Virus record (IMG/VR): IMGVR_UViG_3300032278_000149
Coordinates: 1 to 20,978 of that record
From: a virus
DNA: 20,978 bases
Strand: one strand, 5' to 3'
Positions within the stretch are counted from its first letter, which is position 1. Every line of letters begins with the position of its first letter. The notes beneath the pieces were generated by a model, which searched no databases, had not been told where the DNA came from, and saw only the letters and a program-made list of their open reading frames with translations. A program made the translations under genes and the position numbers. Shown here in pieces: positions 885 to 20,530 of this stretch.

Positions 885-1823
885 TTATTCGCCTCTTGTG
901 AATTTACGAATGCGGAACGTGCCACCGGGACTCACATATTCACTATCGATCAGTTTCCCGTCACGGTCGTACACCTCGACAGTATGACCCTTTGGCGGTG
1001 GCAGCGCGGCCACTACCTGTGCCACGATAGCCGACAACTGATCTGTCGTAATCTCGCCGGGTCGTCCCTGTGGGCCTATTGGTCCAACCGGTCCACGTAT
1101 TGTACTGGGGGGGACATCCGCCGGCGGCGCAATGATCTGTTTTTTGGGGGGGTAATCGAGGCGCGGAGTACACTGGCGGCAAGAGTCGGTCAGGTCATAG
1201 CTATGCCGGCCGGCCCATGTTTCCAAAAGCCGGCGCACGTGCCGCACTGGTGTTGAGGCTGATGCGCCGCGCGCATCAGCTCCCCAGTTTAGGCCGACCA
1301 ATCGTCCCCGCAAAAATAGGCCCGCACCGCTATCACCACTCACGCTGCGGATACCAACTGCAAACACCTCAACAGATCCGTTGCGGCCGGTATCAGACAT
1401 TAGCTGGCCGCGGCCCAGTTTGGCACGTCCGGAGCCACCATATCCTATCATTGTCAGTACCTCACCCACGTCCGGCGGGATGTCCGACATCTGAACATAC
1501 GGCACCTCCCCTGATTGGACGTAGCACAGCGCCACATCCGCCGGCCGGTCAAACGCGATCACGTGAGCAGCCCACTGCTGGCCGTCATCACTCACAACCT
1601 GAAGGTCATCGGCCAGTCTGTGGCCGACGACATGGCTATTAGTAGCCACAATCCTGGGGTGTATGCCGACCGCAGTACCTCCTGAGCGCTCACCGTTATG
1701 AAACGAGGTCCAGATCCGAAAACTGGCGGCGGCTGGTGTGTGGGCCTGAACATGATTGCACCTACCCAACACAACACACATAGCCATTACGACCGCGGAT
1801 ATTAATAGACTATTTTTTTGCAT
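885..1823 (-). CDS. Secreted trypsin-like serine protease with collagen-like segment
   Basis: This 312-residue protein has an N-terminal signal peptide (charged start, hydrophobic residues 5-20, possible cleavage after VQA at 25-27). A trypsin-type domain follows with the full triad visible: His64 in ATNSHVV, Asp96 in PADVAL and Ser165 in SGDSGAG. A CxxC lies at 215-218. A short collagen-like run (GPVGPIGPQGRPGE, 244-257) precedes a C-terminal domain of about 55 residues. The product should be an exported or virion-surface peptidase; Gly-X-Y runs in phage proteins often form trimeric stalks. The gene overlaps the nuclease gene by 14 bases and may be coupled to it. Alternatives are an accessory envelope protease or a virion entry protein. 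The fold and catalytic residues are clear, the role is not. Confidence 0.8.
   Translation of the reverse strand: MQKNSLLISAVVMAMCVVLGRCNHVQAHTPAAASFRIWTSFHNGERSGGTAVGIHPRIVATNSHVVGHRLADDLQVVSDDGQQWAAHVIAFDRPADVALCYVQSGEVPYVQMSDIPPDVGEVLTMIGYGGSGRAKLGRGQLMSDTGRNGSVEVFAVGIRSVSGDSGAGLFLRGRLVGLNWGADARGASASTPVRHVRRLLETWAGRHSYDLTDSCRQCTPRLDYPPKKQIIAPPADVPPSTIRGPVGPIGPQGRPGEITTDQLSAIVAQVVAALPPPKGHTVEVYDRDGKLIDSEYVSPGGTFRIRKFTRGE
1788..1810. repeat. 23-bp imperfect direct repeat, copy 1
   Basis: A 23-bp sequence inside the first codons of the serine protease gene recurs at 2157-2179 with a single mismatch (position 17 of the repeat, A here and C in copy 2). The two copies are read in different frames, so protein similarity does not explain the match. 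Copy 1 lies just inside the protease start, where the upstream nuclease gene ends. Confidence 0.6.
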
Positions 1824-2175
1824 CGAATATCTCGTCTAAAAGTTTCCATGCGAGGCCGTTGTTCCACCACTCGCTAGGCACCCAATAGCACCTCCATCCC
1901 AATAGTTGTGCGGAATTGAGTTTCTCGCAGTCGGCAGCATATCCCAGTCCTCGCGTATGACGGCCAGATGTGAACGTGCCTCCCTGTATTTCGATGGCGA
2001 TCTTTTCATTGGGCCAGGCCAGATCGTATCGCCATTTACGCTTAGAGTGGAAGCGGTATTCGCACTCCGGAGCTGGGTAACCCATCAGGGCAATCAATTT
2101 TGCCACCTGTTCCGAGTTGCCGCTAGTTAGTCGGCAGGCTCCCTCAGTAGCGCGACTACGACCGCGGATATTCAT
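1810..2175 (-). CDS. Phage endonuclease, PD-(D/E)XK-like
   Basis: A protein of about 121 residues from the ATG at 2175; longer starts would overlap the upstream gene by up to 149 bases. The core reads WRYDLAWP, then IAIEIQGGTF, SGRHTRGLGY, DCEKLN and LGWRCYWV. The Asp, then Glu-x-Gln arrangement and the following GRHTRG/GW motifs match a small phage nuclease family with the restriction-endonuclease fold, related to Vsr/DUF559-type enzymes (established pattern). Such proteins are usually found among phage replication and recombination genes, where they may resolve branched DNA. It overlaps the upstream gene by 20 bases. The nuclease fold is likely; the substrate is unknown. Confidence 0.7.
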   Translation of the reverse strand: MNIRGRSRATEGACRLTSGNSEQVAKLIALMGYPAPECEYRFHSKRKWRYDLAWPNEKIAIEIQGGTFTSGRHTRGLGYAADCEKLNSAQLLGWRCYWVPSEWWNNGLAWKLLDEIFDAKK

Positions 2176-2647
2176 AGACCAGATCCCGCGCTGAGGCTTC
2201 CGACTTCCACGCTTCGTAGCCCTCCACAGACTGCCAACGGCCGGAGGCATGCTGTGGAGGCCGGCTTGGGACAGTTTGGCCTGGGTATCTGCTCGCGAAA
2301 TCACGCGCCACCAATGGGTACAACTCAGACTCGGAAATCTTACAGCTACCTGTCTGAGTCTTCAGCCGCGAAAACCATACGGCCCGGAGCCTCTCCCATT
2401 CGAGCGAATAGTCAGTCCTAGATTTGTTTCCAACTGTTTCGCGCAGCGCCGACAAAATCTCAGATACGCTGGGGAAATAACGGTTTTGTCTGATTATTCT
2501 ATCAACCGCTGCCAACGTCTCTTCACAGCTCGCACCCGTCCTGTTTACTTCTTGAAAGTAAAGATTCTGTCGGCTGGGAGCTAGGTTAGACTTTCCGAAC
2601 GCGTCACATAGACGACCAAGAAATGGCGTGAAATCACTTTTCCTCAT
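2156..2647 (-). CDS. Replicative helicase loader-like protein (G39P/DnaI type)
   Basis: A protein of about 163 residues from the ATG at 2647, with GGAG about ten bases upstream; an earlier start at 2686 is less likely. The N-terminal half (FTPFLGRLCDAFG, then YFQEVNRTGASCEETLAAVDRI and RYFPSVSEIL) follows the helical pattern of phage helicase loader/inhibitor proteins such as G39P: a Y-F-x-x-L-type helix, a run of short helices and a FP-S-x-x-E-I motif. The C-terminal half is charged and unassigned. Its position beside a nuclease and a probable recombination protein supports a role in replication initiation. The assignment is by pattern only. Confidence 0.5.
   Translation of the reverse strand: MRKSDFTPFLGRLCDAFGKSNLAPSRQNLYFQEVNRTGASCEETLAAVDRIIRQNRYFPSVSEILSALRETVGNKSRTDYSLEWERLRAVWFSRLKTQTGSCKISESELYPLVARDFASRYPGQTVPSRPPQHASGRWQSVEGYEAWKSEASARDLVYEYPRS
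2157..2179. repeat. 23-bp imperfect direct repeat, copy 2
   Basis: The partner of 1788-1810, 22 of 23 bases identical. This copy spans the start codon of the nuclease gene and the last codons of the helicase-loader-like gene. The two copies thus bracket the nuclease gene. Confidence 0.6.
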
Positions 2648-2798
2648 TTTGCGCGCACTCCGGGTGCATACAACCGCTAAGGTCACCCCCGCCCGCAGTG
2701 CGCCTTAGCACCATCACCACCACCGGAGGCATCTGAACGGATACGATCCGAACATAAGGGGTCAAGCCGACTCAAACTACCACCAGGGGCTGTAAGCG
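2648..2798. other. Intergenic stretch, small palindrome only
   Basis: There is no credible gene here. One short hairpin (CGGAT-acg-ATCCG, 2738-2750) is visible, without a T-run on either side. The strand read by the flanking genes has a TTGACC followed at a suitable distance by TATCCG, which is too weak to call a promoter. Confidence 0.4.
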
Positions 2799-3134
2799 CT
2801 AGCCGGCAATGCGCACTGCATGTCCACCCGCAATCATTTTTTGCGACACGCTCTCACTATCACCATCAACATAAAAATCAGCCAGCCACCTGCCGAAAGA
2901 ATCCGACTTTTCCGTCCGAACGATAAGCCGCGCACCCTTGAGGCAGGCGGTCAAATAATCCGTCGCTGCCAGTCCTCGCGACCTATCGGCACCCCGTGGC
3001 TCAGCTGCGTCTATACCCAGTAGCCGAAATCGCTGTCGGGTTTGGATCCTGAATCCCAAGTCAACAACACAATCAACGGTATCACCGTCTACGACCCGCT
3101 CGAGCGAGCAATTGTATTCGTAATTAAAACCCAT
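2799..3134 (-). CDS. Staphylococcal-nuclease-like endonuclease
   Basis: A 111-residue protein of the thermonuclease (SNase) family, which cleaves DNA or RNA at exposed strands with calcium. Catalytic positions align well: VVDGDTV (14-20), Arg37 in FRLLGID, Asp42 and Glu45 in DAAEPRG (spacing as in DTPE of nuclease A), and Arg82 in FGRWLAD. It is shorter than secreted nucleases and has no signal peptide, so it is a compact intracellular phage form. It overlaps the end of the upstream gene by 11 bases, so the two are probably co-translated. It probably acts in DNA processing or host DNA breakdown. Confidence 0.85.
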   Translation of the reverse strand: MGFNYEYNCSLERVVDGDTVDCVVDLGFRIQTRQRFRLLGIDAAEPRGADRSRGLAATDYLTACLKGARLIVRTEKSDSFGRWLADFYVDGDSESVSQKMIAGGHAVRIAG

Positions 3135-3861
3135 CAGATTCTCGGGTCAGTTCATCGCGCCTCGATTTCCCACACGCTATTATTTTCGTTTGCTCAGCTG
3201 CGTCTATTTTATTTCGCATCGATTTAAAATCCGACATGACTGCGTCCAGCGCGTCATCATCCTCGGAATCCCCTATGCGTTTGCCCCACCACTCGGAATG
3301 CGTCAACGTCCGCACGTCGGCCAGCTCCCTCAGTTCACGGGCGGTCGTAACGTCGGACCTGATCTGGCTGGCCGTTTCTGCCAACTGCGCGGTGGCAGGC
3401 ATTTCTTCAAATGGAGTTACCTCAAATCCTGCTAAGGACATCACCCAACTCAGGCACAACCTGAACGACTTTCCGGTGGCGCGAGTTACGGCCATGCTAC
3501 GCCTCGCGTAGCGGGGCCGGCGCGCCCAGTCCGGTTCATCGGCCCCGACCAAACTCGATGCGCCGCTGACCACTGAGCCATCGCTGAGTCGTATTATCTC
3601 GACGCGCGCGTGAATCGAGCCATCTTGATCTTCTGTTATTTCTTTCTCTCGGGGCATTAGGCCGCACATATTACCAAGCAAGACCCATCCCTCCACGTGC
3701 ACGTAATCCCGCGACGAAATTTTCGTGAATAGCCGCTGCTTGATTATCACGGCCTTGAGCTGATCGGCCAGAGACGTAGCCACCTCGATACGGTGCAACG
3801 TCGGCACGTCCAAAAGTCCCTCCCCTGAGCGCTGCCGGTCAATTATCTCACCATCAGTCAT
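3124..3861 (-). CDS. Conserved phage early protein, possibly recombination/ssDNA-related
   Basis: A 245-residue soluble protein, first in the leftward early operon. It contains DYVHVEGWVLLGNMCGLMP (about 53-71), a stretch on a modified or dosed ligand (LSDGSVVSGASSLVG) and the signature YARRSMAVTRATGKSFRLCLSW followed by LAGFEVTPFEEMP. I recall this signature from a widespread phage family found beside replication and recombination genes, but its biochemical activity is not known to me; a Rad52/ERF-like annealing role is a guess. The gene lies only 12 bases after a hairpin plus T10, so its expression should depend on read-through of that element. It is followed by an overlapping nuclease gene. 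Confidence 0.6.
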   Translation of the reverse strand: MTDGEIIDRQRSGEGLLDVPTLHRIEVATSLADQLKAVIIKQRLFTKISSRDYVHVEGWVLLGNMCGLMPREKEITEDQDGSIHARVEIIRLSDGSVVSGASSLVGADEPDWARRPRYARRSMAVTRATGKSFRLCLSWVMSLAGFEVTPFEEMPATAQLAETASQIRSDVTTARELRELADVRTLTHSEWWGKRIGDSEDDDALDAVMSDFKSMRNKIDAAEQTKIIACGKSRRDELTRESDGF

Positions 3862-3873
3862 ACTTGCTCGCGC

Positions 3874-3924
3874 AAAAAAAAAATCGGTGGTGTGGCCCCT
3901 CGCTACAAGAGATTACACCACCGA
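3874..3924 (-). terminator. Intrinsic terminator-like hairpin with T10, in leader of early operon
   Basis: Read on the minus strand, TCGGTGGTGT (3924-3915) can pair perfectly over ten bases with ACACCACCGA (3893-3884), leaving a 21-nt loop, and is followed at once by ten T (3883-3874). This is the form of a rho-independent terminator. It lies between a strong promoter and the first gene, with only 12 bases to the ATG, so it cannot be just the end of an upstream operon. It must control the operon's own leader. Confidence 0.75.
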
Positions 3925-3952
3925 CCGTAATCGGTTTTTGTTAGCGAGGGGC
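3895..3952 (-). promoter_or_regulatory. Competing antiterminator hairpin in the same leader
   Basis: On the minus strand GCCCCTCGCTA (3952-3942) pairs over 11 bases with TAGCGAGGGGC (3905-3895), and can extend by three pairs past one bulge. Inside it, GATTAC and GTAATC (3932-3927 with 3916-3911) can form a second 6-bp stem. The loop holds the left arm of the terminator hairpin. Only one base separates the end of this stem from the right terminator arm, so the two complete structures should exclude each other. That is the layout of an attenuator or riboswitch expression platform. No known riboswitch aptamer is recognised. Confidence 0.65.
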
Positions 3953-3959
3953 GGGTCCA

Positions 3960-3987
3960 ACTATACCCAGCGCCAAAATCGTGTCAA
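3960..3987 (-). promoter_or_regulatory. Strong sigma-70-type promoter for early operon
   Basis: On the minus strand a perfect TTGACA (3987-3982), a 16-bp spacer and TATAGT (3965-3960, one mismatch to consensus) are present. Transcription should begin near 3953, at the first base of the antiterminator stem, giving a leader of roughly 90 nt before the ATG at 3861. Confidence 0.75.
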
Positions 3988-4008
3988 TGTCATAACGTTA
4001 CTACGTGG

Positions 4009-4227
4009 TCATTCTGCCGGCGTCAGCAGCCGATCCTCGAGCGCGGCAATCCTGGCCTGGTAAGTCTCGCGCTCGGCTCGCCAATGGGCCTCTCGAACCC
4101 AGGACTGCCAAACAAAAAATGCGACCAAAAGCGCCATCGGCCCGGCGCTCGAGAACAATCCCGCCCAATCGGTGAGCGCCACCGCGGCCAGGCTGGTAGA
4201 GCAAATTGCCAAGCTTGTTGGGTGCAT
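4009..4227 (-). CDS. Small membrane protein, holin-like
   Basis: A 72-residue protein. A moderately hydrophobic N-terminus (LAICSTSLAAVALTDWAGLF) leads into a clear transmembrane segment (GPMALLVAFFVWQSWV, 29-44), then a charged helical tail (REAHWRAERETYQARIAALEDRLL). This organisation is common in small phage membrane proteins of the holin or lysis-accessory type, but the sequence matches no family I can name. It lies alone on the minus strand between a terminator-like hairpin and the early promoter. The ribosome site is weak. Confidence 0.5.
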   Translation of the reverse strand: MHPTSLAICSTSLAAVALTDWAGLFSSAGPMALLVAFFVWQSWVREAHWRAERETYQARIAALEDRLLTPAE

Positions 4228-4261
4228 GTCGGATCCGGAGGGCGTACTGGGGGTTCAAAAG

Positions 4262-4296
4262 GCAGGGGGTGACGCGCGATGAACGTCACCCCCTGC
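4262..4296 (-). terminator. Leftward terminator-like hairpin
   Basis: GCAGGGGGTGACG (4262-4274) and CGTCACCCCCTGC (4284-4296) form a perfect 13-bp stem with a 9-nt loop. On the minus strand it is followed by CTTTTG, a short T-run, so it could end leftward transcription. It lies just upstream of the small membrane protein gene and could block late or antisense transcripts arriving from the right. On the plus strand no T-run follows. Confidence 0.6.
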
Positions 4297-4372
4297 TGCT
4301 GCAACATCATCACCGGCATCATCGTACCACCCCACCGGCAATCGGGACGACCCGGAATAATAATATGTTGTG

Positions 4373-4385
4373 GTGTTGACAACAC
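4373..4385. promoter_or_regulatory. Palindromic operator candidate overlapping -35 box
   Basis: GTGTTG-A-CAACAC is a perfect 6-bp-half-site palindrome that covers the -35 element of the rightward promoter. A protein bound here would block RNA polymerase. The HTH protein encoded at the end of the same operon is the obvious candidate. A second, looser inverted repeat (GTGGTG/CACCAC) flanks the -10 region. Confidence 0.55.
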
Positions 4386-4404
4386 TATATGGTGGTGGTA
4401 CATT
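4376..4404 (+). promoter_or_regulatory. Rightward promoter for the regulatory operon
   Basis: A perfect TTGACA (4376-4381), a 17-bp spacer and TACATT (4399-4404, four of six consensus bases). The start point should lie near 4411, giving a leader of about 45 nt before the ATG at 4455. Confidence 0.6.
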
Positions 4405-5397: not shown

Positions 5398-5616
5398 ATG
5401 CTAGAACACGACTTGCGGGATGCTATCCGGGAAGCGCACAGAACCATATCACTGAGAAAACTGGGGCGGGAAGCCAATGTCGATCACGCCCGGCTCTCGA
5501 GATTTTTGGCGCGAAAAGCACCTCTCACGCTCGCGCAGGCCGGCGCTCTTGCCGAACACCCATTGTTGTCGCTGCAATTGACGCAGGTGCCTCACGTCGA
5601 TACCGGCCCCACGTGA
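5398..5616 (+). CDS. Small HTH DNA-binding protein, probable repressor
   Basis: A 72-residue protein with an excellent start: GGAGG seven bases before the ATG at 5398. Residues 18-39 (SLRKLGREANV then DHARLSRFLAR) form a helix-turn-helix of the XRE/Cro type, followed by a conserved-looking helix (LTLAQAGALAEHP). Proteins of this size and fold are usually Cro-like regulators. The palindrome over its own operon's -35 box suggests autoregulation. Its end overlaps, head-on, the last 25 bases of the late operon. Confidence 0.7.
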   Translation: MLEHDLRDAIREAHRTISLRKLGREANVDHARLSRFLARKAPLTLAQAGALAEHPLLSLQLTQVPHVDTGPT

Positions 5617-9946: not shown

Positions 9947-10357
9947 TTAGGACTCCGTGTGATAGGTGACCACGTCCACCGAACGGACGTGGTTGAAACG
10001 TTGGGAACCGTTTACGGGAGGCTCGGATAGGTCGCGCATCCCCGTGACCATTGCGCTGCGTGTAGTTTCTAGGCCCCACGCTCCGGTGTAATGGTCCGTT
10101 GCGATTCGGACGGCATCACCCACTTCATAAGCGCTGGCGTGGTTGTCTCCGTGGCAGTCTATTTGGATCATCGAGCGTGTTAATCCACTCCGCGCCGTTA
10201 GGTGGTGAGCTGGGTTTGCGTCTATTAGGTTGAGCGCAATTGCAGGATACTCGGGATCCTGCGGCAATTGGCCGTAATATATGCGCGTGCCTGTCAGGCT
10301 GGTAACACTCGTAGTTGCTGCCAGAAAGGTTCTCAGGCCCTTTATTATGTCGGCCAT
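9947..10357 (-). CDS. Tail terminator/completion protein (DUF3168-like)
   Basis: A 136-residue protein with IIKGLRTFLAATTSVTSLTGTRIYYGQLPQDPEYPAIALNLI at the N-terminus, the typical opening of the DUF3168 tail-completion family. It also has a central RSMIQIDCHGDN strand, and helix AYEVGDAVRIATDHY. These proteins cap the tail and join it to the head. The ATG shares one base with the upstream stop (TGATG). Length and order fit well. Confidence 0.8.
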   Translation of the reverse strand: MADIIKGLRTFLAATTSVTSLTGTRIYYGQLPQDPEYPAIALNLIDANPAHHLTARSGLTRSMIQIDCHGDNHASAYEVGDAVRIATDHYTGAWGLETTRSAMVTGMRDLSEPPVNGSQRFNHVRSVDVVTYHTES

Positions 10358-17272: not shown

Positions 17273-17393
17273 AGGTAAGCGCCCCAATGATCAGCATTGC
17301 ACCGGCGACTATCAGCGCGGCCGGTGGTGAAATCCACCACATGCCGGAAAACATTACGCCACACCCGGAAAGAACCGCAAGGTCAGTTCGCAT
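17253..17393 (-). CDS. 46-residue membrane protein between synthase and portal genes
   Basis: A short frame reads MRTDLAVLSGCGVMFSGMWW, then ISPPAALIVAGAMLIIGALT and YAWPNK. It has one long or two short hydrophobic segments split by a Pro-Pro, with a positive end, so it should insert into a membrane. The ATG at 17393 overlaps the end of the synthase gene by 11 bases and its stop lies 20 bases inside the portal gene. It fills what would otherwise be the only gap here. The ribosome site is weak (GGTAGGG close to the ATG). Small membrane proteins beside portals are known in several phages without a firm function. Confidence 0.55.
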   Translation of the reverse strand: MRTDLAVLSGCGVMFSGMWWISPPAALIVAGAMLIIGALTYAWPNK

Positions 17394-18237
17394 GCCCTAC
17401 CATTTTATCGTTATTCGGCATCTGCACACCATAGATAGACCGCCAGGATGCGCGGATATTGCGCGACCATGCGCAGAATAGATCGGGCGTCAAACTGGCC
17501 GCATGGTCGGTGCCCCTCTGCTGCTGGCTAAACGTAATGTGGGATTCAAACACCGACGCCCCCAGAGCTACAGCAGCGCCGCCGAGAGACGTGGTGCCTG
17601 TGTGATCGGACCAGCCTACAGGCTGGTTATACTTGCTTTTCAACGACAACACCTGGAGCAAGTCGACGTTATCCAGTGGCGTGGGGTACACACGGTTACA
17701 GTGCAGCAACACATCAGCCCAATCCGCCGCACAGTCCTTTTCATTATCAGTTGCGCCGCCGGTAGAAACCATAAGTGGCAAACTAGTACTTGTAGCCACC
17801 TCCATTATCAGGTCTATATTTCCGCAATCCTTTGATGCAATCTTGAAAAAGTCGAGGTCCATTTCAATTAATGGCTCGACGCATCGCATGTGGCAGGGCG
17901 TAACGCCAAAATCGAGAGGCCATTGGTTAAATCTTATGCGTTCCCTGATGTGGCGCAATTCAGCAAAGTCGAGGTCCAGGCATGCGCGGTGGTCGCCATA
18001 CGTCGGGCCGAAAGCATGTTCTGGCCGCGGGTGTGGCCTGGCCAGCTGCGCCGGATGATATTCCGCGGCCGCATCACGTGCCTGAAATTTGACGGCGTCT
18101 GCTCCCGATGCCAGCGCGGCCGCGCAAAGGCGTATTGCCGTGTACACATCACCCTGATGGTTTTGGCCTATTTCCGCAATGATATATGGGTGGCGCTGGG
18201 GATCCAGTGGGCCGCCGCGCTTGCTTAAATCAACCAC
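17383..18237 (-). CDS. NeuB/SpsE-like nonulosonic (sialic-type) acid synthase, without SAF domain
   Basis: A 284-residue protein from the GTG at 18237, with AGGGGGA five bases upstream overlapping the stop of the previous gene. It has the full NeuB TIM-barrel signature: AEIGQNHQGD (21-30), SGADAVKFQ (44-52), FFKIASKDCGNIDLI, LMVSTGGA, LHCNRVYPTP, GWSDHTG with metal ligand His212, FESHITF with Glu231 and His233, and RGTDHAASLTPD. The family condenses PEP with an N-acyl hexosamine to give sialic, legionaminic or related acids. Usual enzymes are about 340-350 residues; the C-terminal antifreeze-like SAF domain is missing here. The product cannot be deduced. It is adjacent to a cytidylyltransferase. 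Confidence 0.85.
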   Translation of the reverse strand: MVDLSKRGGPLDPQRHPYIIAEIGQNHQGDVYTAIRLCAAALASGADAVKFQARDAAAEYHPAQLARPHPRPEHAFGPTYGDHRACLDLDFAELRHIRERIRFNQWPLDFGVTPCHMRCVEPLIEMDLDFFKIASKDCGNIDLIMEVATSTSLPLMVSTGGATDNEKDCAADWADVLLHCNRVYPTPLDNVDLLQVLSLKSKYNQPVGWSDHTGTTSLGGAAVALGASVFESHITFSQQQRGTDHAASLTPDLFCAWSRNIRASWRSIYGVQMPNNDKMVGHAN

Positions 18238-18246
18238 GAATCCCCC

Positions 18247-18861
18247 TTAGCACGTGCCGTTATATCGATCACGCATGATTGCTAGATCCGCCTCGGTATC
18301 TAGCGTGTTATCGCCATGATAGTCGGTGCCATCGAGCCAGTGGCCTGCCACCTCGACTCGCTGATGGCATCCCCAGGTGACATGTTCGCAGCTCGCGCGC
18401 GAGAAATCTCGTAAACGTTCCAAACAAATAGTTGTTACCAGCTCAGGCAATCCGGCATGTGTCAAAACGCCAGGCCGGCTTCCCACTCGGAACCCAACAT
18501 AATCCATCCCAGGTTCATATTCCCTCAGCAAGTCGTCAATCCGCCGAGGGTCGATGAACGGACAATCCGCGCAGACCCTGCATATCAGATCGACCCGATG
18601 AAAACGCGCAACGTTTATCAAGCGATCCTGGACATTTTCTTCAGATCCACGTGAGACCACAACGTTGTGTTCCCGGCACCACGCGCAGATCGGGTCATCC
18701 AGCGCAGATACAGTGGTTGCCACGATGACCCTTGCTGCCTGACTTGATTTACAGCGCTCGACAACGTGTTCTAGTATTTGTTTTTTCCCAAGCATTTTTA
18801 GTGCCTTGCCTGGGAGTCGGCTAGATCCCATACGCGCCTGAATTAGCACAGCATTGTTCAC
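18247..18861 (-). CDS. SpsF-like cytidylyltransferase (nonulosonic acid activation)
   Basis: About 204 residues from the GTG at 18861, with AAGGA eight bases upstream; a longer frame to 18963 would overlap terminase. The start MNNAVLIQARMGSSRLPGKAL holds the CMP-sugar transferase P-loop-like motif (8-19). It continues with LEHVVERC, RVIVATTVSALDDPICAWC, VVVSRGSEENVQDRL and RVCADCPFIDP (95-105), all typical of the SpsF/CMP-KDO synthetase fold. Members link CMP to acidic sugars. The stop overlaps the synthase's ribosome site, so the pair forms one translational unit, as SpsE and SpsF do in sporulating bacilli. Confidence 0.8.
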   Translation of the reverse strand: MNNAVLIQARMGSSRLPGKALKMLGKKQILEHVVERCKSSQAARVIVATTVSALDDPICAWCREHNVVVSRGSEENVQDRLINVARFHRVDLICRVCADCPFIDPRRIDDLLREYEPGMDYVGFRVGSRPGVLTHAGLPELVTTICLERLRDFSRASCEHVTWGCHQRVEVAGHWLDGTDYHGDNTLDTEADLAIMRDRYNGTC

Positions 18862-18913
18862 GTGAGGTTCCTTAATGCGGATCAGATTAAATATAGTTGC
18901 TAGTTGATGCCCA

Positions 18914-20530
18914 CTACATCTGTATAACTCCCCTTTCATCGTAAACATTGTCACTGTCGACAACGGCCAGGCCCATCGCCATGACTAGGGCCACCACCCC
19001 GTCAATTTTTCCTTTTGTGCCCCTATCACCGTGGCTACGTTTCTTGCTTGGTTTTCGGTTTCCAGCACCGTCTATTTCAATTACCGTGCTGGCAATCTGC
19101 CAATCAAGGCAGGGGTTTTTGTCATGCAATAGGTTTCTATTTAAGACGGCTTCCTCGACGGCCTTTGTGCCAGGCCATAGGCCGGCATGATTCTGGCTGA
19201 TTTTGACACATTCAATCCCCATGTTCGCGAGGCGCTGCTGTGTGTCCAGCGCTTGCCAGGGGTCGAATGCGATGCGGGTTATCTGATATCGCTGAGAGTC
19301 TATTCTTATTCGCTCGCGTATGAATTCATAATCAGTGGCAGACCCAGGCGTGGCGGTCATATGGCCATCCTGTTTCCACTGTCGGTACTGGCCCTGGTAT
19401 TTTTTTTGGGTCATGCTGATTGTTTCAGCCGGACAAAAAAAATGGCTGAGCACGTAGTAGCGGCCCCCCACAGGGAACACGTATACAAGCGCGCATAAAT
19501 CATCCGTAGATGCCAGGTCGAGGCCCGCTATGCATGGCCTACCTGAAAGATAATCCAGCGCGTTGCCGGCGGGATACTCACCACCGCAAGATGCCCAGGC
19601 GTCTGAGCTGAGCCACCTACTTTCCGACTCTGTCCACATGTTTAGATGCAGATTTTTAAATGTATTCTCGAATGCCGGAACGGTCTGCGCTCGAAAAAAC
19701 ACCTCACGTATATACTCCGGTGGGACACTACGTCCCCAGTTTGGGTTAACCCTTTCCCAGACATCCGGTGACGTCCAATCGTCATTGTCGGTGGCCTCGT
19801 AAATGACAGGCAGGAAGTAGGGATCGGATATGGCACCATCCCGAACCTGCCGCGCATAGTTCCACAGCTCATAGCAAATTGAATCTTGGTCGTGGCCAGC
19901 TGTGGTAATGCTACCGAGGACAGGTTGTAGACGTGCCACCGTGCTAGTTTTCAGGACGTCATATAAGTCACGATTTGGCTGAGCATGAATTTCGTCGATA
20001 ATGACCGCATGACTATTCAAACCGTGCAGGCCTGATGCTTCAGCCGGAATCGTGCGGATAAATGAGTTGGTTGACTGGCACACAATTCGTTTATCCTGGC
20101 GGTATAGTTGGCACATAGACGACAGGTCATCGTTAGACCTGACCATAGCGGCCGCCGGGCGGTAGAGTAGCGATGCCTGTTGAATACCTGACGCCGCCAG
20201 ATATGTCTGCGCGCCTGGCTCGCCATCGCAAAGCGTCAGGTACAGCGCCAGGCCTGCGCACATCGTAGTTTTGTTATTTTTGCGTGGTATGCCCACAAAA
20301 AACTCGCGATAACGGCGAGTACCATCTGGGCGGATCCATCCGAACAACGTTGCTAGAAAGTCGCGTTCCCAGGGGTTAGGCGTGAGTGGCTGTCCAGATA
20401 GTTTTCCCTCGATGTGACAGAGGTACAGCGAAAAAAACTCCAGAACACGTTCCGCGGCGCTGCCGTCCCAAGTGCAATCTGATTTAGTTTCCCAAGGATC
20501 ATAGCCCGCCACGTCGCGTGGCGGATCCAT
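18914..20530 (-). CDS. terL: Terminase large subunit
   Basis: About 538 residues from the ATG at 20530 (TGATG overlap with the small subunit; AAGGTGAT lies upstream). The ATPase domain has a Walker A-like GIPRKNNKTT (80-89) and Walker B HAVIIDE (174-180), followed by ITTAGHDQDSICYE (motif III region). The nuclease domain shows the acidic triad in AGLDLAST (Asp338), AFDPWQ (Asp423) and KGKIDGVVALVMAM (Asp510). It packages DNA into the prohead through the portal. The deviant Walker A is normal for this family. Confidence 0.95.
   Translation of the reverse strand: MDPPRDVAGYDPWETKSDCTWDGSAAERVLEFFSLYLCHIEGKLSGQPLTPNPWERDFLATLFGWIRPDGTRRYREFFVGIPRKNNKTTMCAGLALYLTLCDGEPGAQTYLAASGIQQASLLYRPAAAMVRSNDDLSSMCQLYRQDKRIVCQSTNSFIRTIPAEASGLHGLNSHAVIIDEIHAQPNRDLYDVLKTSTVARLQPVLGSITTAGHDQDSICYELWNYARQVRDGAISDPYFLPVIYEATDNDDWTSPDVWERVNPNWGRSVPPEYIREVFFRAQTVPAFENTFKNLHLNMWTESESRWLSSDAWASCGGEYPAGNALDYLSGRPCIAGLDLASTDDLCALVYVFPVGGRYYVLSHFFCPAETISMTQKKYQGQYRQWKQDGHMTATPGSATDYEFIRERIRIDSQRYQITRIAFDPWQALDTQQRLANMGIECVKISQNHAGLWPGTKAVEEAVLNRNLLHDKNPCLDWQIASTVIEIDGAGNRKPSKKRSHGDRGTKGKIDGVVALVMAMGLAVVDSDNVYDERGVIQM

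Follow-up and report, generated by a model that had tools for sequence, protein, structure and literature searches.

The question raised by this locus was how two inverted repeats, packed between a strong promoter and the first gene of a viral operon, act on the genes behind them. The original prediction took them for the competing stems of a transcription attenuator or riboswitch-like leader. The window, i.e., the whole stretch of DNA that was analyzed, has 20,978 bases and spans the whole of its source record, a sequence from an uncultured phage. The late genes (terminase, portal, protease, capsid and tail) run leftwards from its right end. A second block, near the left end, opens with an ORF at 3861-3124, followed by a SNase-like nuclease gene and further ORFs. 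The leader sits between a small membrane-protein-like ORF (4227-4009) and the ORF starting at 3861 (ORF 3861), and consists of the following elements.

3960-3987, minus strand: sigma-70-type promoter, TTGACA (3987-3982), a spacer of 16 nt and TATAGT (3965-3960); 11 of 12 consensus matches, the best such site in the window
3942-3952, minus strand: 5' arm of helix A, GCCCCTCGCTA; 11 Watson-Crick pairs with 3905-3895
3925-3941, minus strand: loop 1, 17 nt, A-rich; its ACCGA could pair with arm B as a short alternative
3915-3924, minus strand: 5' arm of helix B, TCGGTGGTGT, the left arm of the terminator; 10 Watson-Crick pairs with 3893-3884
3906-3914, minus strand: loop 2, 9 nt; its UCUCUUG is weakly pairable with A'
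3895-3905, minus strand: 3' arm of helix A (A'), TAGCGAGGGGC, inside the loop of helix B
3884-3893, minus strand: 3' arm of helix B (B'), ACACCACCGA, the right arm of the terminator, one base past A'
3874-3883, minus strand: T10, predicted U-tract of an intrinsic terminator; neither strand of the window has a longer T-run

Each of these parts was present on the minus strand as originally predicted, from TTGACA-16-TATAGT through the 11-bp and 10-bp stems to T10 and the ATG at 3861, 12 nt beyond it. The tail of the leader (3883-3862) is made up of U10 and GCGCGAGCAAGT. The promoter was scored against a sigma-70-like consensus. The first base of helix A coincided with the predicted +1, 7 nt past the -10 box. 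A GC stem of 10 bp followed by T10, standing between TATAGT and the ATG, is the layout of an intrinsic terminator, and termination was predicted from it.

When the 79-nt leader was shuffled with its dinucleotides preserved, none of 20,000 shuffles exceeded 16 bp of summed interleaved perfect stems, against 21 bp observed, and the minimum free energy of the leader had a z-score of -4.1. The two interleaved perfect stems (21 bp in 79 nt) are thus no product of chance.

Several other features were seen in the window. A stretch of 30 bp, GCTCGCGAAATCACGCGCCACCAATG..., occurs in two near-identical copies of opposite orientation 2.5 kb apart (2290-2319, plus strand, and 4827-4798, minus strand), one of which lies at the start of an ORF at 2304. 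The palindrome GTGTTGACAACAC (4373-4404, plus strand) shares bases with the TTGACA of a promoter-like site on the plus strand. Downstream of it lies a small ORF (5398-5616, plus strand) with weak HTH similarity, and the pair may represent an operator and the gene of its repressor. Between the large terminase and portal genes lie genes for a NeuB-like synthase and a cytidylyltransferase, for sugar synthesis of the sialic/legionaminic-acid type (17383-18963, minus strand). By eye only, an ORF at 885-1823 (minus strand) resembled a protease of the trypsin type and showed a collagen-like GPxGPQG segment.

The competition between the stems was the part of the original prediction that did not hold. 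It had been argued that the two cannot both form fully; this does not follow, since no base belongs to both and they are not mutually exclusive by pairing. Helices A and B have zero nucleotides in common and follow each other in the order A-B-A'-B', which is the order of an H-type pseudoknot, here with 11 and 10 Watson-Crick pairs and loops of 17, 9 and 1 nt. The strong promoter, the structured leader and the textbook intrinsic terminator before the first gene of the operon all stood.

The knotted form was estimated at about -37.7 kcal/mol, including two extra pairs flanking B, compared with -29.7 for the best nested fold; the estimate is rough, as it combined ViennaRNA stem energies with simple pseudoknot penalties. 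Rough as it is, it favors the joint formation of A and B. Loops of 17, 9 and 1 nt look feasible only if A' stacks on B'. With a third loop of one base, A' would probably stack straight onto B', and loop 1 would run alongside the two helices.

A classical attenuator would use the same arms differently. The A:A' pairing would be an antiterminator that blocks B:B', and a signal freeing or blocking the 5' arm would decide between read-through and termination. In favor of such a device, A' emerges earlier than B', and, if pseudoknots are disregarded, the A state (-29.7) surpasses the B state (-26.0) in stability; ACCGA of loop 1 pairs with the base of arm B in the former, and UCUCUUG of loop 2 with A' in the latter. 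In a leader of another phage (L097, see below), loop 2 holds an exact second copy (CTTGCGG) of the leader's own 5' arm, which would permit the same exchange. On the other hand, an antiterminator that excludes its terminator overlaps it, and the overlap of A and B was 0 bases. The pseudoknot was also estimated to be more stable than either nested state. Furthermore, loops shuffled with their composition preserved did equally well in the alternative pairings, with p of about 0.39 for ACCGA with arm B and about 0.07 for UCUCUUG with A'. An evolved two-state switch through loop mimics gained no support, since 39% and 7% of the shuffled loops, respectively, matched these pairings, i.e., chance level was not exceeded. 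The arrangement of the leader supports a single knotted fold more than such a switch, and we consider the attenuator unlikely.

Nor did anything point to a metabolite, which had been named among the possible signals. No Rfam family matched the window above its gathering score, and the best sub-threshold scores were far under the cut-offs. This agreed with the original prediction, in which no known riboswitch class was recognized.

We propose, with a probability of roughly 0.45, that the leader is a cis-acting 5'-terminal pseudoknot which ends in an intrinsic terminator and throttles the recombination/replication operon by premature termination. Transcription would start at about 3952, on or beside the first base of helix A. 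Helix A would close when A' leaves the polymerase, which at that point reaches the U-tract, and the terminator helix B would close within a few nucleotides of it. The two would fold jointly into an H-type pseudoknot of about 70 nt with U10 directly behind. Most transcripts would end in the U-tract as a knotted RNA of about 77 nt with its 5' end buried. The operon would be expressed from the read-through fraction, and the leader would thus throttle it right at its own promoter.

Because B alone would enclose a loop of 21 nt, helix A may accelerate or impede its closure. Helix A would set the speed and the quality of closure of this large-loop terminator, and expression would be tuned by whatever acts on the 5' arm, be it a protein, an antisense RNA or the kinetics of RNA polymerase. 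This leads to a simple prediction: breaking helix A should change termination, and restoring the pairing should restore it. If true, knotting the 5' end into the terminator would allow the output of an early operon to be set compactly and without a protein.

A terminator here could also simply shield the operon from leftward transcription, constitutively and with helix A incidental. In favor of this are the compactness of the phage and the late genes located upstream, in the same orientation. On the other hand, the promoter stands between the upstream gene and the terminator, and the perfect 11-bp helix starting from +1 would be left unexplained. A separate hairpin of 13 bp at 4296-4262 may, moreover, already end the upstream stretch. 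These points made an unregulated insulator highly improbable.

The hairpin in question is a perfect 13-bp inverted repeat, GCAGGGGGTGACG/CGTCACCCCCTGC (4262-4296), of about -30 kcal/mol on the minus strand, followed by CTTTTG. It is possibly the end of the upstream transcript.

Whether all transcription of the operon passes the leader depends on the presence of other promoters. The original prediction saw none after the terminator. This is not fully secure, as an extended -10 element, TGAGATAAT, is present at 3850-3842, inside the ORF, where it precedes an in-frame TTG (3813) that has an SD-like, purine-rich stretch. The ATG at 3861 appeared to be the likelier start, because the internal element has no good -35 box and the N-termini of homologues (e.g., MSDEIVV and MSNEIVV) resemble the MTDGEII read from this ATG. 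The extended -10 element and TTG 3813 would nevertheless allow for an internal promoter.

Such a promoter could serve the operon if the leader were a stand-alone gene for an sRNA of about 77 nt acting in trans, with the operon served by it or by read-through. The stretch from the promoter to U10 has the exact layout of an sRNA gene with an intrinsic terminator, and it combines the strongest promoter and the longest T-run of the window. In every other case of the architecture described below, however, a same-strand ORF follows closely, which favors a leader acting in cis. An sRNA gene is in our view quite unlikely.

The genes behind the leader were then of interest for the function of the operon.

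3124-3861, minus strand: first ORF past the leader, phrog_19042 (function unknown), E 3.8e-19
2799-3134, minus strand: second ORF of the operon, SNase-like nuclease, PF00565 / phrog_452
2156-2686, minus strand: further ORF of the operon, possibly replication-related, as judged from sequence character; no family match

The ORF 3861 protein had no sequence match in Pfam, NCBIfam or PDB. Its AlphaFold model had a pLDDT of 82, and Foldseek gave Mgm101 (probability 0.99) and RAD52 (0.89) as the best likenesses, at E of about 0.01. Comparison of the model with RAD52 gave a Z of 7.9 over 89 residues, a value within the range of unrelated folds. We interpreted the protein as a candidate single-strand annealing protein of the Rad52/Mgm101 type, a good guess rather than proof, which is strengthened by the nuclease gene next door.

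Relatives of the leader were sought through its protein, the terminase, the pattern of the arms, and phage DNA and protein searches, and none of these gave a diverged homologue. The sole relative among 2.9 million viral contigs was the same virus (L001/L003/L099), 99.87% identical over 8.9 kb and with an identical leader. Two matches to the arm pattern (L004 and L005) were rejected as unrelated. No description of such leaders was found in the literature.

A degenerate motif scan and a profile scan yielded hundreds of homologues of ORF 3861. About 85 of their upstream regions were inspected, and none had interleaved stems, a GC-rich terminator stem and a T-tract at the strength seen in the window. 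On the basis of these regions, conservation of the leader with the annealase family was rejected.

A different conserved leader was seen upstream of distant ORF 3861 homologues in L017, L041, L062, L039 and L090. It has an invariant TGCGTACGGGGAGCA...TGACCCGACCCC, a terminator-like stem with a T-tract and a second hairpin with a T-tract ahead of the gene. The arms of the terminator-like stem covary, with four pairs changed on both sides. In that other lineage, it is a candidate for an attenuator of the same family of genes.

The architecture, as distinct from the sequence, was looked for in 4.7 Mb of fetched loci, mostly phage, selected for homologues of ORF 3861 or of proteins of the class members. 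The scan required a helix beginning close to +1 behind a -10 box, together with a second helix interleaved with the first, and covered 2,369 promoter-like sites. With a score of at least 48 and helix A starting 6-8 nt past the -10 box, it gave eight cases, distributed over five phages, compared with 0.4 per shuffled set, a ratio that is somewhat optimistic since the threshold and the spacing window were picked after early hits had been seen. Other spacings of helix A gave a thin, even background with no comparable peak. The promoter-anchored architecture thus recurs in other phages.

The window: upstream of the annealase candidate
L144:2216: upstream of a GIY-YIG ORF
L268:330 (phage of L097): upstream of an HNH ORF
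L267:15496/L354 (phage of L097): upstream of a GIY-YIG ORF
L097:7862: upstream of a replication gene, then DnaB
L315/L339:787 (about 780; phage of L315): upstream of an HNH ORF
L339:3375/L391 (phage of L315): upstream of a GIY-YIG ORF
L284/L341: upstream of a small ORF, followed by a replication gene and DnaB

All eight members have a same-strand ORF within about 150-200 nt of the -10 box. The stems keep their pairing although their sequences are wholly different, even between copies in one phage. The window and L144 have a strong U-tract, which is weaker or absent in the other members (e.g., L267, L268 and L315). Termination is therefore not what the group has in common. The likeness of the members could also stem from convergence.

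Possible further cases, L287/L434 (spacing 11) and L389, were not counted. A further 1 Mb or so, including lambda and part of T4, added only another copy of the L287 candidate. A leader common to homing endonucleases in general was rejected, as 80 GIY-YIG loci gave only two clear cases, both already known, and the possible L389. So was a leader conserved at the replication operon, none being present in the region searched of the L340 phage, the DnaB of which is 63% related to that of the L315 phage. The contigs L144, L097 and L037 had no relevant match in Rfam; L037, a phage contig, carries an HDV-like ribozyme (10013-10085, minus strand; RF02682, 49.8 bits, above the cut-off).

Three of the members (L267:15500-15620, L268:330-440 and L339:787-900) have a U-rich loop 1 and a third possible helix of 7 bp between loop 1 and loop 3, with the pairs TTTTGCC/GGCAAAA, TTGCCTA/TAGGCAA and TTTACCG/CGGTAAA, respectively. 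This suggests a more complex fold in these members.

The spacing also bore on a function at the DNA level, in which the inverted repeats would be protein-binding sites or part of a replication origin. They do lie at the start of transcription, beside replication and recombination genes. Outside the stems, however, the window held no copies of the arms beyond chance, apart from a weak excess of arm B copies with one mismatch, and the strand-specific T10 and the spacing of 6-8 nt to the -10 box fit an RNA better. We regard a DNA-level function as scarcely credible.

Our tentative and somewhat doubtful generalization is that phages carry an unreported, sequence-diverse class of leader RNA. In it, the first bases of the transcript would close a long helix interleaved with a terminator-like helix, forming a 5'-terminal pseudoknot shortly before early or mobile genes, i.e., recombination/replication operons and genes for GIY-YIG or HNH endonucleases. 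The member with the strongest terminator would be that of the window, the pseudoknot there acting on termination. With the sequence free and only the pairing kept, such a class would be invisible to sequence searches and missing from the RNA family libraries.

Pseudoknots are known in the control of mRNAs. In T4, gp32 binds a pseudoknot in the leader of its own mRNA and represses its translation (PMC535899, PMC3014915), and according to a review of 2010, the T4-type gene 32 leader was perhaps still the sole viral pseudoknot in translational autoregulation (PMC3014915). Like the gene 32 leaders of T4, T2 and RB69 (PMC535899, PMC3014915), the window has an H-type pseudoknot, here as a predicted fold, in the 5' leader of a phage mRNA for recombination or ssDNA binding, upstream of a less structured stretch. 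It differs in its long perfect stems (11 and 10 bp) from +1, in ending in U10, and in having no UUAAA repeats overlapping the ribosome-binding site. The downstream protein is of a different family, and an annealase only as a candidate.

By analogy to T4, the pseudoknot might be a translational operator or a 5' stabilizer, which would protect the 5' end of the mRNA, bind the annealase as gp32 does, or both. Its position at the mRNA 5' end of a candidate ssDNA-annealing protein is consistent with this, as is the start of helix A near +1 in 8/8 class members. However, the U10 behind B is the hallmark of a terminator, the UUAAA repeats are missing, the other members precede nucleases and replication genes rather than annealases, and the roughly 85 annealase homologues do without the leader. 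We judge this role very unlikely.

A terminator-based leader is closer to other systems. In RCd22-abiF of a C. difficile phage, the bulk of transcription ends at a terminator in front of the gene, and this and type III toxin-antitoxin loci share with the window a promoter, a structured RNA of about 100 nt, a Rho-independent terminator and a gene served by read-through (PMC12373285). The window, on the other hand, has no abiF motif (RF03085) or tandem repeats (no direct repeats were found at 3500-4400), and its downstream gene encodes a candidate annealase and not an RNase toxin. Attenuators and the expression platforms of riboswitches likewise place an intrinsic terminator between promoter and operon, but the helices of the window have no bases in common, and neither an aptamer nor a leader peptide was recognized in it.

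HK022 putL is, like the leader of the window, a structured RNA of about 70 nt right after an early phage promoter, and it affects termination in cis (PMC9378689). The put RNA consists of two stem-loops and a short triplex and makes RNA polymerase ignore terminators (PMC9378689), whereas the leader of the window has interleaved helices and a terminator of its own. It is the nearest case of an RNA that acts on termination from a position directly behind an early promoter, and it does so by a different structure.
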